DNA of 64,000 nucleotides from Persicimonas caeni (lineage in GTDB: Bacteria > Myxococcota_A > Bradymonadia > Bradymonadales > Bradymonadaceae), in assembly GCF_006517175.1 (NCBI RefSeq), contig NZ_CP041186.1:3251074-3315073 (forward strand). Direction: 5' to 3'. The notes under the pieces are model-generated. The model did not search any database and was not told the origin of the DNA. It worked only from the letters and a program-made list of their open reading frames with translations. How positions within the stretch are numbered: the first letter of the stretch is position 1; each line of letters starts with the position of its first letter. Positions 12,920 through 19,523 of the stretch are shown piece by piece. Both the position numbers and the translations under genes were made by a program.

Positions 12920-12947
12920 TTGACATCCCCCCACAAATACGTACCAT
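12920..12947 (+). promoter_or_regulatory. promoter of the TetR-efflux operon
   Basis: TTGACA (12920-12925), 16 bp, TACCAT (12942-12947). The consensus -35 and a moderate -10 put the start site near 12954, just before the operator-like dyad at 12963-12979. Confidence 0.6.
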
Positions 12948-12962
12948 CCTCCATCTAACACC

Positions 12963-12979
12963 CGTTAGCTTAACTAACG
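12963..12979 (+). promoter_or_regulatory. probable TetR operator
   Basis: CGTTAG-CTTAA-CTAACG is a perfect dyad. Overlapping it is a second dyad CTTAAC-TAAC-GTTAAG (12969-12984). It lies just downstream of the predicted start site and 40 bp before the TetR gene, which fits autorepression of the efflux operon by that regulator. Confidence 0.6.
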
Positions 12980-13018
12980 TTAAGTGCGGCCCTCCACTCC
13001 TACTTAGGATTGGCACCG

Positions 13019-13717
13019 ATGGAAGATGCACTCGCTCCAGATAGCCTGGAGATTTTGCCCAAGCTCAAAGAAGCTGAGGTACCCGAGGTACCTGCGCGCA
13101 TTATGACCGTGGCGCTGCGCCTGTTTGCCCACAAGGGTTACGCGGCGACCAGCGTGCGTGAGATCGTCCAGGAGGCTGACGTCACCAACCCGATGCTCTA
13201 CTACTATTTCAAGAGCAAATCGGGCCTCTTTGCCGAGCTGATTTCCCACCTCTTCGGCTCGATGTTCGAGGAGATCAAAGGGGTGCTCGCCGAGACCGAC
13301 ACCTTCGTAGACAAGCTTCGCGGCGTGGCTTGGGCGCACCTGGATGGCTGCCGCCAGAGCCCGATCGCGCTCAAGTTCGTCTACTCAGTGCTCTTCGGCC
13401 CGCAGACCAGCCGGCCCGAGTTCGACATCTTCACCCAGCATGTCTGCGTGATCGGCACGATCGTCAACGTCTTCGAGGACGCGATCGCCGCCGGCGAGTT
13501 CGAACCCAACGGCGATTTCTCGCCGCTCTTTTTGACCCACCAATTTTTCGGACTGCTCAACGGCCACCTGATGCGCACGCTCAAGCTCGTCGAGGTAATC
13601 TCGCCGGCGGCCAAACGCCGCGAGTATATGGATGAGCTTTTGTGCCGCGAAGAGGGCACGCGCCTGGTTGAATTTTTTCTGAACGGTGCCGGACGCATCG
13701 TCGACGAGGAGAAGTAG
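13019..13717 (+). CDS. TetR/AcrR-family transcriptional regulator
   Basis: 232 aa from the ATG at 13019 (an in-frame TTG lies at 13010). The N-terminal TetR helix-turn-helix is clear: IMTVALRLFAHKGYAATSV, REIVQEADVTNPMLYYYFKS, KSGLFAELI. The C-terminal region is an all-helical ligand and dimer domain. It is first in an operon with an RND adaptor and pump; its stop codon touches the next gene. It most likely represses the efflux operon and responds to a pump substrate. The dyad at 12963-12979 is its probable binding site. The ligand cannot be inferred. Confidence 0.9.
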   Translation: MEDALAPDSLEILPKLKEAEVPEVPARIMTVALRLFAHKGYAATSVREIVQEADVTNPMLYYYFKSKSGLFAELISHLFGSMFEEIKGVLAETDTFVDKLRGVAWAHLDGCRQSPIALKFVYSVLFGPQTSRPEFDIFTQHVCVIGTIVNVFEDAIAAGEFEPNGDFSPLFLTHQFFGLLNGHLMRTLKLVEVISPAAKRREYMDELLCREEGTRLVEFFLNGAGRIVDEEK

Positions 13718-13719
13718 TG

Positions 13720-14943
13720 ATGTATCGACGTTTTGCTTACAAGACGGCGCTCGCCATCGCCGGCTGTGCGGTGGTGCTGGGCACCTTGTCGGGCTGCGAG
13801 CCCCCCAAGTCCGACGCCGCGCCGGCCGACGGAGACGCCAAGAGCGCCGAGGCCGATCCGATCCCGGTCGAAACCCTGACCGTCCAGACGCGCGACTTCA
13901 CCGAGTCGTTCGAGGTCCCGGCCACCGCCGAGCCCCTCGAGCAGGTGACCGTGTCGGCCGAAGCCGGCGGGCGCGTGTTGGTCGCCCCCTTTGAAGAGGG
14001 CGAGGAGATCCGAGCAGGCAGCCGCTTGCTGCGCGTGGACACCGAGCTCGACTCGGCGCGCATCGATCTGGCCGAGAGCCAGCTCGAGAGCGCCCAGCGC
14101 GAGTACGACCGCACCAAAAAGCTCGTCGACAAAGGCTTGGCGACCCCACAGCAGCTCGATCGCGCCGAGGACGCCCTCGAAAACGCGCGCCTGAGCCTCG
14201 AGCAGGCCAAGATCGGCGCCAGCAAAGGCGGCGTGCGCAGTCCGGTGAGCGGCGTGGTCCTCAAAAAGTACGTCAAAAAGGGCGAGTTCGCCTCCCCGGG
14301 CGCCCCGATCGCCACGATCATCCAGTACGACAAGCTCGAGATCGTCGGTCAGGTGCCCGAGTCGCGCATCTCGTTCGTCAAGCTCGGCGACAAGGTCTCG
14401 GTGAGGTTTCCCGCCCGCGACAAGACGATCGAAGGCGAAGTGACCCACCGGGCGCTGACCGCCTCTCCGCGCACCGGCACTTTCGCCGTCGAGGTCACGG
14501 TGGACAACCCCGACCTCGACATCCTTCCGGGGATGAGCGCGCGGATCGAGATCATCAAAAAGCAGTGGAAGGACGCCGTGGTCGTGCCGCGCGAAGCGGT
14601 CCTGCAGGGCTTCTCGCGCTCCGAGACGATGGTGCTGCCGGGCGGTGAAGAGACTGGCAAAGCCGAACTGCATGTCGTCGAGCTCGGCCCTAGCGCCGGG
14701 CCCGACGTGGTGATCACCCGAGGACTCGACGCCGGCGAGCGCCTGATCGTGCGCGGCCACCGCGGCCTGGTCGACGGCGCCGTGGCCCGCAAAGTGCGCC
14801 ACTACGACAGCATCGACCAGATGCGCACCGCCGGGGCCGGGCTCGAGCTCGCTGCCGACAAGGACGACGAAGACAAAGACGACGACCAAGCCAGCTCCCA
14901 GCAGTCCGACGGCGACGAAGCCTCGGAGGGTAAAGGCCAATGA
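13720..14943 (+). CDS. RND efflux periplasmic adaptor lipoprotein (membrane fusion protein)
   Basis: 407 aa from the ATG at 13720 (a GTG codon precedes it). Signal peptide with lipobox LSGC, so membrane-anchored like AcrA. Domains in order: beta-barrel/lipoyl half (GRVLVAPFEEGEEIRAG), an alpha-helical hairpin (about residues 105-165, heptad-like, RIDLAESQLESAQREYDRTK), the second lipoyl half with VRSPVSGVVLKKYVKKGEF, a barrel domain (GDKVSVRFPARDKTIEG) and a membrane-proximal end. The C-terminus is a long acidic DDEDKDDDQ tail. It overlaps the pump gene by 4 bp (ATGA). It links the inner-membrane pump to the outer-membrane channel, which is here part of the next polypeptide. Confidence 0.92.
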   Translation: MYRRFAYKTALAIAGCAVVLGTLSGCEPPKSDAAPADGDAKSAEADPIPVETLTVQTRDFTESFEVPATAEPLEQVTVSAEAGGRVLVAPFEEGEEIRAGSRLLRVDTELDSARIDLAESQLESAQREYDRTKKLVDKGLATPQQLDRAEDALENARLSLEQAKIGASKGGVRSPVSGVVLKKYVKKGEFASPGAPIATIIQYDKLEIVGQVPESRISFVKLGDKVSVRFPARDKTIEGEVTHRALTASPRTGTFAVEVTVDNPDLDILPGMSARIEIIKKQWKDAVVVPREAVLQGFSRSETMVLPGGEETGKAELHVVELGPSAGPDVVITRGLDAGERLIVRGHRGLVDGAVARKVRHYDSIDQMRTAGAGLELAADKDDEDKDDDQASSQQSDGDEASEGKGQ

Positions 14944-17900
14944 AAGCCACAAATTTTGCCATCCGCCACGCCACGGCGGTCTTTGTGTTGATCGCCGTGA
15001 TCATCATCGGCGGTATCGGCGCGTATATCTCCATTCCCAAGGAGGCCGCGCCCGACGTCAAGATCCCGGTGGTCATCGTCAGCACCGCCTATTTCGGGGT
15101 GTCGCCCGCCGACATCGAGACGCTGGTGACCCAGCCGCTCGAAAAGGAGTTCAAGGGCCTGCGCGACCTCGACAAGATGACCAGCACCTCGGCCGAGAGT
15201 GTCTCGCTGGTCACCCTGGAGTTCGACCCCGAGGTCAACATCGAGGATGCGCTGCAAAAGGTGCGTGAGAAGGTCGACAAGGCCAAACCCGACCTGCCCG
15301 ACGACGCCGAAGATCCCGAGATCATCGAGATCAACTCCAGCGACTGGCCCGTGCTCATCGCCAACGTCTCCGGCGACATGGACCTGGTGCGCCTCAAAGA
15401 GGTCGGCGAAGCCCTCCAAGAGGATATCGAGGAGGTCAGCGGCGTACTCCGCGTCGATCTGGCCGGCGGCGTCGAGCGCGAGATCCAGATCGACGTCGAC
15501 CCCGACAAGCTCGAGCACCACAAGGTCTCGCTCAACCAGGTCATCGGCGCCATCCAGCGCGAAAACGTCAACCTGCCCGGCGGCAGCCTCGAGATGGGCG
15601 CGATGAAGTACACGGTGCGCGTGCCCGGCGAGTTCGAGGAGGTGCCGCCCATGGCCGACATCGTGGTCAAGTCGCCCAACTCCGAGCCGGTCTTTCTCAA
15701 AGACATCGCCACGGTCAACGACAGCTTCAAAGAGCCGGAGACCCGCAGCCGCCTGACCACCTGGGTCGACGGCGCCAACGGCGAGCGCCGCGCGATCACC
15801 CAGCCCAACATTTCGCTGTCGGTCGTCAAGCGCGCCGGCGAGAACATCATCGACATCGCCGAGAAGTCGAAGGAGATCATCGCGCGCTACGAGAAGCGCT
15901 ACGCCTCCGACGGCCTCGAGATCGTCGTGCTCAACGACATGTCCAAGCAGATCCAGGCGCAGGTCCACGAGCTCGAGAACAACATCATCTCGGGCCTGCT
16001 CATCGTGCTGGCGGTCTTGTTCTTCTTTATGGGCGGCGCGCGAAACGCGCTGTTCGTGGCCATCAGCATCCCGATGTCGATGCTCTTGAGCTTTTTGGTG
16101 CTCTCGATGCTCGGCATCACCATGAATATGGTCGTGCTCTTCGCGCTCATCTTGGCGCTGGGCATGCTCGTCGACAACGCGCTGGTCGTCGTCGAGAATA
16201 TCTACCGACACGCCAGCGAGGGCAAAAGCCGGCTGCAGGCAGCCATCGTGGGCACCGAGGAGGTCGGCTGGGCGATCATCGCCTCGACGGCGACCACCGT
16301 CGCCGCCTTCTTCCCGATGCTCTTCTGGCCCGGCATCATGGGTGAGTTCATGGGGTATATGCCCATGACCCTGATCATCGTGCTGGTCAGCAGCCTGTTC
16401 GTCGCCCTGATCATCAACCCGACGGTGTGCGCGGTCTTCCTGAAGGTCAAAGACGGCGTCGGCTTCTCTGAAGACGAAGTGCCCGATCTGTGGATCTACC
16501 GCGCCTATCGCTGGCAACTCGGCTGGGCTCTCGACCACCGGCTGGTGGTGGTCATCATCAGCATCTTGGTCTTCGGCGGCACCTTCGCCATCTTCGTGAA
16601 CACCTCGCGCGGCGTCGAGTTCTTCCCCGAGACGACCCCCGAGAAGTTCACCATCAACGTGGAGAACCCCGACGGCACTCGCCTCGAGGAGACCGACAAG
16701 CTGCTCGAGCGCTTGGCCGCACCGCTGGCCCAAGGCGCCGATCTGGTCGAGGCCTACATCATCGACTCGGGCGTCGGCGGCGGCGACGGCATGGTCGCTG
16801 CCGGCGGCAACACGCCCCACAAGGGCAAGATCTCGGTCGACCTGCTCGACGTCGACGATCAGCCCCGCCCGCCCGAAGAGCTCATGGACGAGCTTCGCAA
16901 GGAGTACGCCGACGTCGCCGGCGCCAGCGTCATCCTCAAAAAGGAGGAGATGGGCCCGCCGACCGGCTCGCCGGTCAGCATCGAGATTCGCGGCGAAGAC
17001 CTGCAGGTCCTGGCCGCCATCGCCCGCGAGGTGCGCCAGACGCTGCGAGCCATCCCCGGCATCGTCAACCTGCAGGACGACATCGAGCTGAGCCGCCCCG
17101 AGATCCAGATTCTGGTCGACCGGCGCCAGGCCGCGCTTCGCGGGGTCAACACCCAGTCGATCGCCCAGACGGTGCGCACCGCCATCAACGGCACCAAGGC
17201 GAGCGTCTTCCGCGAAGGCGAAGACGAATTCGACGTCACCGTGCGTCTGCAGGAATCGGATCGCGACGGCGTCGAAGACCTCGAAAAGCTCACCGTGGCC
17301 GACAAGGACAACAACCGCGTGCCGCTGGTCGACGTCGCCCAGATCACCGTGCGCGGCGGTAGCGGCTCGATCCGCCACAAAGACCGCCAGCGCGTGGTCT
17401 CGGTGACCGCCGACGCGGCCAAAGGCTACCTGCCTAACAACCTGCTAAAAGAAGCCCAGACGCGCCTCGAAGACCTCGACGTGCCCCCGGGCTACGAGCT
17501 CGCCTTTACCGGCGAGCAGGAAGAGCAGAAGAAGGCCGGCGACTTCTTGGCCAAGGCTTTGTTGGCCGCGGTCTTCTTGATCTCGCTCATCCTGGTGACC
17601 GAGTTCAACTCCATCGCCCAGCCGTTCATCATCCTGTGCAGCGTGCTGTTGAGCCTCATCGGCGTGTTGTGGAGTCTGATCATCACCGGCGAGCCCTTCG
17701 GCGTGATCATGACCGGCATCGGCATCATCAGCCTGGCCGGCGTCGTGGTGAACAACGCCATCGTCATGATCGACTACATCAACAAGCTCAAGGAGCGCGG
17801 CCTCAGCAAGCGCGAGGCGGTCATCACCGGCGGCCTGGTGCGCTTCCGCCCGGTCATGCTCACCGCCATCACCACCATCGGCGGCATGTTGCCGCTGGTC

Positions 17901-19523
17901 GTGGGCGTGAGCATCGACTTCGTGAACACCAAGATCGTGGTGGGAGGAAACTCCGTGGAAATGTGGGGCCCGATGGCCAACGTCGTCGCCGGCGGCTTGC
18001 TGGTGGCCACTGTGCTCACCCTGGTGGTCGTGCCGGTGCTCTACTCGCTGTTCGACGACATGAGCGAAGGCATTCGCAAGCTATTCAAGATGGGCAGCGC
18101 CTCGGCGCTCGTGTTGCTGATCGTGTCGATGGCGCCCTTCGCTCAGGCTCAAGAGGTGCCGAAGCAGCAACCCGATCAGACTCAGGCCGAAGAGACCAAT
18201 GCCGAGCAGCAGGATGTCGAGCAGCAGGATGTCGAGCAGCAGGATGTCGAGCTTCGCCCCGAAGATGACATCGACGAGGCCGAACTCATCGAAGCCGATC
18301 GCGTCCTCGAGCTCGACCAGGCTCGCGACATCGCGCGCAAGCAAAACCTGAACGTGCGCCTCGCACGCCAGCAACTGGCCGTCGCCGAGTCGCAGATCCA
18401 GAGCGCGTTTAGCCGCATCCTGCCGCAGGTCAGCGCCAGCGGAAACTACATCATCAACCAGGACGAGATCGCCGGCGAGTTCCCCTCCTTCATCCCGGGT
18501 GAAGACCCGATCCGCATCGTCACCCAGCCCCAGACCACCTGGAACTGGGAGGTCGGCGCCACGCTGCCGCTCAACGCACGCGCCTGGCCGGGCATCCAGA
18601 TCGCCTACGGCCAGAAGGACCGCGCCGAAGCCCAACTCGCCTCGGCCCGAGAGCAGATCGATTTCAGCGCCACCCAGCTGTACTACAATCTGCTTCTGGG
18701 CAAGCAACTCGTGCGCATCTCGCGCCAGCAGCTCGCCTCGCGGCGTACCCTGCTCGAGGCGACTCGGCTTCGCGTCGAGGCCGACGTGGCCACCAAATTC
18801 GACCTCAACCGCGCCCGCGTGCGCGTCGTCGAGGCCGAAAAAGACCTCGAGCAGGCACGCCTGTCGTTCATCAAGGCACGCCAGTCGCTGGCGAATCTGC
18901 TGCAGACCGAGGCGGACTTCGACGTCGAAGAGCCCGCCGATGTCGCTCTGCCCGAAGAGCTCGCCGAGCTCAAGCAGACCGCCGAGCGAGAGCGCTACAC
19001 CGTCGAAGTCGAGCGCATTAACCAGAAGATCGCCCAACTCGCCCTCGAGGAGGTCTACTACCAGTACCTGCCGACGCTGTCGGCGACCTTCAAGTACTCG
19101 GACAGCGCCGACACCGACCTGAGCGAGCAGGACCCGCAGTGGCAGATGATCTTCGGGGCCCAGTGGACCATCTGGGACGGCGGCCAGCGCGAGGCGCTGC
19201 TCGACGAGCGCAACGCTCAGCTTCTGGCGTCCAAGCTCCAAAAAGAGCAGACACTCGACGACATCTCCACCGAGCTCGAGCGCGCCTGGGCCGACTACCT
19301 GTCGGCCAAGACCCAGGTCGCCTCCTCCAAGGAGCAAGTCGAGCTGGCCGAACAGGCCTTCGAGCAGGCCCAGATCGGCTACGAGAACGCCGTGACCACC
19401 CAGCTCGACTTGATCGACTCCCAAGACCAACTCACGCTGGCGCGCATCAACCTCGCCCGCGACCAATTGCAGGTCGAGCTGGCGGTGCGCACGCTGCGCT
19501 ACCTTGCAGGCATCGACGACTGA
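14940..19523 (+). CDS. RND efflux pump fused to a TolC-like outer-membrane channel
   Basis: 1527 aa in one uninterrupted frame. Residues 1-1050 are a complete RND (HAE-1-like) transporter: first helix and VSPADIETLVTQPLE porter motif, TM4 LGMLVDNALVVVENIYRH (Asp then Asn at the proton-relay pair), TM10 VVVNNAIVMIDY, and last helix ending VVPVLYSLFDDM. Residues 1051-1070 read like a signal peptide with a signal-peptidase I site (AQA-QE at 1070/1071). A short repeat (EQQDV three times) follows, and then about 450 residues of TolC family with two outer-membrane-efflux repeats. The RND C-terminus is cytoplasmic, so the internal signal-like helix would carry the TolC part into the periplasm. Cleavage or an internal start at the ATG at 18090 is possible, but I see no ribosome site there. 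Similar pump-TolC fusions are known in Bacteroidota CzcA-type pumps. Confidence 0.92.
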   Translation: MKATNFAIRHATAVFVLIAVIIIGGIGAYISIPKEAAPDVKIPVVIVSTAYFGVSPADIETLVTQPLEKEFKGLRDLDKMTSTSAESVSLVTLEFDPEVNIEDALQKVREKVDKAKPDLPDDAEDPEIIEINSSDWPVLIANVSGDMDLVRLKEVGEALQEDIEEVSGVLRVDLAGGVEREIQIDVDPDKLEHHKVSLNQVIGAIQRENVNLPGGSLEMGAMKYTVRVPGEFEEVPPMADIVVKSPNSEPVFLKDIATVNDSFKEPETRSRLTTWVDGANGERRAITQPNISLSVVKRAGENIIDIAEKSKEIIARYEKRYASDGLEIVVLNDMSKQIQAQVHELENNIISGLLIVLAVLFFFMGGARNALFVAISIPMSMLLSFLVLSMLGITMNMVVLFALILALGMLVDNALVVVENIYRHASEGKSRLQAAIVGTEEVGWAIIASTATTVAAFFPMLFWPGIMGEFMGYMPMTLIIVLVSSLFVALIINPTVCAVFLKVKDGVGFSEDEVPDLWIYRAYRWQLGWALDHRLVVVIISILVFGGTFAIFVNTSRGVEFFPETTPEKFTINVENPDGTRLEETDKLLERLAAPLAQGADLVEAYIIDSGVGGGDGMVAAGGNTPHKGKISVDLLDVDDQPRPPEELMDELRKEYADVAGASVILKKEEMGPPTGSPVSIEIRGEDLQVLAAIAREVRQTLRAIPGIVNLQDDIELSRPEIQILVDRRQAALRGVNTQSIAQTVRTAINGTKASVFREGEDEFDVTVRLQESDRDGVEDLEKLTVADKDNNRVPLVDVAQITVRGGSGSIRHKDRQRVVSVTADAAKGYLPNNLLKEAQTRLEDLDVPPGYELAFTGEQEEQKKAGDFLAKALLAAVFLISLILVTEFNSIAQPFIILCSVLLSLIGVLWSLIITGEPFGVIMTGIGIISLAGVVVNNAIVMIDYINKLKERGLSKREAVITGGLVRFRPVMLTAITTIGGMLPLVVGVSIDFVNTKIVVGGNSVEMWGPMANVVAGGLLVATVLTLVVVPVLYSLFDDMSEGIRKLFKMGSASALVLLIVSMAPFAQAQEVPKQQPDQTQAEETNAEQQDVEQQDVEQQDVELRPEDDIDEAELIEADRVLELDQARDIARKQNLNVRLARQQLAVAESQIQSAFSRILPQVSASGNYIINQDEIAGEFPSFIPGEDPIRIVTQPQTTWNWEVGATLPLNARAWPGIQIAYGQKDRAEAQLASAREQIDFSATQLYYNLLLGKQLVRISRQQLASRRTLLEATRLRVEADVATKFDLNRARVRVVEAEKDLEQARLSFIKARQSLANLLQTEADFDVEEPADVALPEELAELKQTAERERYTVEVERINQKIAQLALEEVYYQYLPTLSATFKYSDSADTDLSEQDPQWQMIFGAQWTIWDGGQREALLDERNAQLLASKLQKEQTLDDISTELERAWADYLSAKTQVASSKEQVELAEQAFEQAQIGYENAVTTQLDLIDSQDQLTLARINLARDQLQVELAVRTLRYLAGIDD
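18198..18248 (+). repeat. 15-bp tandem repeat coding EQQDV
   Basis: GAGCAGCAGGATGTC is present three times in a row just after the predicted signal-peptidase site inside the fused pump-channel gene. It encodes a flexible acidic linker EQQDV x3. Tandem copies can change in number between strains. Confidence 0.7.

Follow-up and report, generated by a model that had tools for sequence, protein, structure and literature searches.

The efflux systems MexJK-OprM, MdtABC-TolC, and AcrAB-TolC consist of a pump, an adaptor, and a channel of the same families as those encoded in the window (the whole stretch of DNA that was analyzed, 64,000 nucleotides from Persicimonas caeni), with a TetR-type regulator in the operon. 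In these systems the proteins are encoded by separate genes, whereas in the window the pump and the channel form one product with an internal signal-peptide-like segment. A pump followed by a segment ending in ..AQ and then by a channel, the same order as in the window, is found in the CusA/CzcA-type fusions of Bacteroidota (TIGR00914 plus OEP, 1438-1506 aa). The sequence-only reading of the locus had mentioned such fusions, and our data agreed with it: among 41 Bacteroidota genomes, 22 of the 60 strong matches to TIGR00914 lay in open frames of 1441-1506 aa, while the remaining strong matches were mostly near 1030-1080 aa. The junction was read in eight genes of fused length. Each of the eight had a hydrophobic segment with ..AQ at its end, and OEP was present in all three such genes tested with Pfam. 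However, the fused pump of Bacteroidota scores over the TIGR00914 cut-off and thus belongs to the heavy-metal family, whereas the pump in the window scores below it, so that the two fusions share their layout and not their pump family. In Bradyrhizobium, fbcH encodes a cytochrome b/c1 polyprotein in which an inner-membrane protein is followed by a protein exported via an internal cleavable signal. Both fbcH products stay at the inner membrane, whereas the second half of the protein in the window is predicted for the outer membrane. A survey of outer-membrane pore proteins describes their fusion with other domains as rare and, in its accessible part, gives no case with an RND pump (PMC4827864). 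Within the accessible text of the open-access literature, we found no account of an internal signal in, or of the processing of, an RND-TolC fusion.

First, the organization of the locus was determined (Table 1). The operon runs from a TetR-family regulator through an adaptor to the fused pump and channel, the fused gene being the last. Adaptor, pump, and channel are thus encoded together, the adaptor gene overlapping the fused gene: all parts of a tripartite efflux operon are present, the final two genes having been joined into one. The adaptor scored 204 bits with the NCBIfam model RND_mfp, which is over the cut-off, and a lipobox-like LSGC lies near its N-terminus. A TetR-family gene adjoins the fused gene in many relatives too, and the regulator suggests efflux of an induced toxic compound. 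The palindrome that may serve as its operator was absent from the output of the repeat finder at the length limit of that tool. About 570 bases separate the stop codon of the fused gene from the next Pfam-supported gene, which encodes a DUF4112 protein. The fused gene itself is one open frame of 1527 aa plus a stop codon, uninterrupted through positions 18030-18110. The open reading frame and the Pfam domains agreed in this respect with the sequence-only reading, which had described a single frame joining a full RND pump to a full TolC-like channel.

Table 1. Features of the operon and of the fused gene, with positions in the window.
Feature	Position	Strand	Basis
Promoter-like site TTGACA-16-TACCAT (candidate)	12920-12947	+	Consensus match and visual reading
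GTTAG...CTAAC palindrome after the promoter-like site, possible TetR operator (candidate)	within 12920-12985	+	Visual reading
TetR-family regulator, encoded first in the operon	13010-13717	+	Pfam TetR_N, E 2e-17
Periplasmic adaptor, MFP/HlyD type	13717-14943	+	RND_mfp TIGR01730, Pfam HlyD_D23
CGGAGGG ribosome site and ATGA overlap, coupling the adaptor stop with the pump start	14924-14943	+	Sequence
Fused gene: RND pump, internal signal-peptide-like segment, linker, TolC channel	14940-19523	+	Open frame, Pfam
RND permease domain, residues 1-1046	14940-18077	+	ACR_tran 5-1038; hydropathy profile
Internal signal-peptide-like segment, residues 1047-1070	18078-18149	+	Junction alignment; counterpart in 50/50 fused loci
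In-frame internal ATG (M1051)	18090-18092	+	No Shine-Dalgarno, not conserved
Acidic low-complexity linker, about 50 aa	18150-18311	+	Repeat; low model confidence at its start
TolC/OEP channel domain, residues 1125-1527	18312-19520	+	Pfam OEP; AlphaFold and Foldseek

The pump half was assigned to the RND superfamily of permeases by PF00873 (ACR_tran), which matched residues 5-1038 with an E value of 3e-216 and 720.7 bits against a cut-off of 28. It had been called HAE-1-like, and this label holds only approximately: the pump is an RND permease, but it scored 373.8 bits with the HAE-1 model TIGR00915, whose curated cut-off is 940.35, and it likewise missed the HME (CusA/CzcA) model TIGR00914, with 433.1 bits against a curated cut-off of 701.45. 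The best NCBIfam model for the pump, RND_permease_2, was also below its cut-off. MexK, MdtB, and ZneA are the solved pumps nearest to it. In TM4 the pump has D412-N413 (window 16173-16178), whereas both residues of this pair are aspartates in MexK and MdtB. In TM10 it has NN, without the Lys of AcrB-type pumps. The TM10 NN was present in all 59 clade members with a readable motif. These residues suggest that proton coupling may differ from the usual Asp-Asp relay.

In the channel half, Pfam detected OEP in two stretches (PF02321, 183.9 bits), the best of which covered residues 1125-1321 with an E value of 4e-54. We modeled the predicted mature part, from Q1071, with AlphaFold, run with 37 relatives. 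The mean pLDDT was 89; the first 31 residues were disordered, and they were followed by short helices, two barrel-strand pairs, and long helices in the order of TolC. The best Foldseek matches of this model were the TolC proteins of E. coli, Salmonella, and Klebsiella, OprM, and CusC (E values of 1e-17 to 1e-20), and the OEP repeats and the TolC fold together identify the protein as a TolC-type outer membrane factor. On this basis the channel is intact, and disorder is confined to the linker. The linker contains a tandem repeat, EQQDV, with a 15-nt unit in 3.6 copies (18199-18252), which is a possible source of change in linker length. A similar repeat, QEQLE, was seen in a relative (L027), and the junction alignment showed that the linker is absent or variable among relatives. 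In pairs of close relatives, dN was far below dS in the pump and channel parts, and the linker evolved faster.

The distribution of the fusion was also investigated. A search for the same fusion in relatives, which the sequence-only reading had proposed as a check, found it uninterrupted and with no stop codon in 18 of the 21 genomes of the same family, representing 11 of 13 genera in separate assemblies; most of the genomes compared are metagenome assemblies, and 2 of the 18 fused ones are single-contig. A close relative of the pump was present in 66 of the 284 sampled genomes of the phylum and many of these were fused, which shows that the fusion is common in Myxococcota and not peculiar to this genome. 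The other fused RND-TolC proteins of Myxococcota share the pump clade and the design of the window, and outside the family their pumps mostly show 45-50% identity, but their linker, unlike that in the window, is often shorter or absent. Both states occur in the sister family f2, where L034 and L035 are fused and L033 and L038 have separate genes. A tree built from 70 pumps requires at least five changes between these states, by fusion or fission. A single fused clade was rejected (p-AU 3e-78), which rules out one ancient fusion; as to whether the two fused genomes of f2 share one fusion, p-AU was 0.075. Repeated switching of this kind would be expected if the end products of the fused and the unfused form were identical. 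Several unfused members of the clade, including L105, L111, L089, and others near L106, nest beside fused pumps. Directly downstream of the pump, no TolC gene was detected in several of these unfused members, and their channel may be encoded elsewhere. Fusion to TolC-type channels through an internal signal-peptide-like segment was also seen in a second, divergent set of RND pumps (about 27-31% identity; L062-L065, L067, L068, and L074) from the same genomes and from other Myxococcota.

The junction between the two halves was then compared across 50 fused loci of Myxococcota. In the window, the hydrophobic segment at the junction is RKLFK-MGSASALVLLIVSMAPFAQA, followed by QE. It divides as RKLFK-MGSASALVLLIVSM-APFAQA before QE, that is, into the basic n-region, hydrophobic core, and small-x-small site of a Sec and signal peptidase I motif, and the predicted cleavage point follows AQA, between positions 18149 and 18150. 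An internal signal-peptide-like helix ending AQA-QE had been noted at this place in the sequence-only reading; by a simple hydropathy and motif scan, it has a counterpart in every one of the 50 fused loci, in the form of a hydrophobic uncharged 11-mer between TM12 and the channel, with a mean hydropathy of 2.1-3.1. An A-x-A site lay within 14 residues past the core in 44 of the 50 loci, compared with 26.0 ± 3.0 in 2000 shuffles of the same residues (maximum 36), and the n-region was net positive in 35. One fused locus, L128, had no small-x-small site by the motif scan. The junction alignment showed that the pattern of basic residues, hydrophobic core, and small-x-small is conserved, whereas the internal Met is not. 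In contrast, the tails of about 45 unfused pumps were short and polar and had no such segment, with the exception of L122 and L070; in L070 the hydrophobic stretch is its own TM12. In L122, which is unfused and whose channel is encoded by a gene of its own, the C-terminal tail is nevertheless hydrophobic and TM13-like, and it is perhaps a remnant of a fusion or a step towards one. Genes of the signal peptidase S26 family are present in the genome of the window.

On this comparative evidence we consider that the gene probably encodes a polyprotein for two membranes, which signal peptidase I would cleave (probability about 0.85). The C-terminus of an RND pump is expected to lie in the cytoplasm. 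SRP/Sec-dependent insertion would therefore place the 12-helix pump in the inner membrane with its C-terminus in the cytoplasm, and the segment that follows, with its basic n-region, hydrophobic core, and A-x-A, would act as a signal peptide and carry the TolC domain into the periplasm. Signal peptidase I would cut after AQA. The freed channel would trimerize, be inserted into the outer membrane by BAM as usual, and dock via the adaptor of the adjoining gene, giving an ordinary tripartite efflux pump. Because the two halves share one frame, pump and channel are synthesized equally. In the assembled AcrAB-TolC complex the pump and the channel stand at 3:3, and equal numbers from a fusion would suit this ratio. 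The repeated changes of state fit either a fusion driven by the ratio or a near-neutral outcome of tightly overlapping genes.

Separate internal translation, in which the channel would be made from its own start within the pump gene, such as the ATG at 18090, and the open frame would be incidental, was considered unlikely. This ATG encodes residue 1051 and sits directly ahead of the hydrophobic core, and the separate channel gene of unfused relatives starts at about the same place. However, no Shine-Dalgarno sequence was found at 18090 (anti-SD duplex energy of +1.1 kcal/mol), just as had been stated earlier of a ribosome site there, and only 17 of the 50 fused loci had any in-frame ATG ahead of the core. 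An in-frame start with a Shine-Dalgarno sequence occurred at 7 of the 50 junctions, which is not above the expectation of 9.9 obtained with windows elsewhere in these genes, whereas 29 of 39 genuine pump starts had a Shine-Dalgarno sequence. The separate channel gene of unfused relatives carries its own signal peptide, and a good Shine-Dalgarno sequence preceded it in 5 of the 6 distinct pairs read. The junction has no stop codon, hence re-initiation is not possible, and the frame is open across it in 50 divergent loci. The missing Shine-Dalgarno sequence, the non-conserved ATG, and the chance level of junction starts rule out a start at 18090 as a general route. In the fused loci L101, L104, and L114, in-frame GTG or ATG starts with strong Shine-Dalgarno sequences were present at the junction, and internal initiation may occur in single lineages such as these.

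We also examined whether the protein might stay uncleaved, in which case the segment would remain in the membrane as helix 13 and tie the channel covalently to the pump in one chain across both membranes. The acidic linker has about 50 residues in the window and in most members of the family, and it could in principle stretch about 180 Å (3.5 Å per residue). Nevertheless, this arrangement is quite improbable. The length of the linker is highly variable, the segment ends in A-x-A more often than expected, and the tree shows switches between the fused and the unfused form. Moreover, the channel fold of L035, L050, and L098 begins almost directly at the predicted cut, which leaves too few residues to span the periplasm. 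In the TolC fold the point where the channel starts belongs to the equatorial belt, a long way from the inner membrane, and for this reason an uncleaved chain would be unable to build a working channel in these three members. The members without a linker thus rule out a tether as the general rule. For the long-linker family we give only a slim chance to a slow or regulated cut, in which some single chains would reach from the pump in the inner membrane to the channel in the outer membrane during assembly. An assembly or sequencing artefact, in which two genes would appear as one through a missed stop or a frameshift, is practically negligible and was ruled out: unfused pairs exist among relatives, but the same uninterrupted join is present in 18 independently assembled family genomes and in many other families. 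Of the three routes considered (internal translation, an uncleaved tether, and export followed by cutting by signal peptidase), the comparisons taken together favor the last.

If the protein is cleaved as proposed, such fused genes would encode bacterial polyproteins in which a single chain provides for two membranes. An outer-membrane protein would then follow directly on its own pump during export. This would set the ratio of their synthesis, and the channel may become dedicated to that pump. The design is recurrent, not unique, and its repeated gain and loss provides natural pairs of fused and unfused systems, which bear on whether coupled synthesis matters for envelope-spanning machines.
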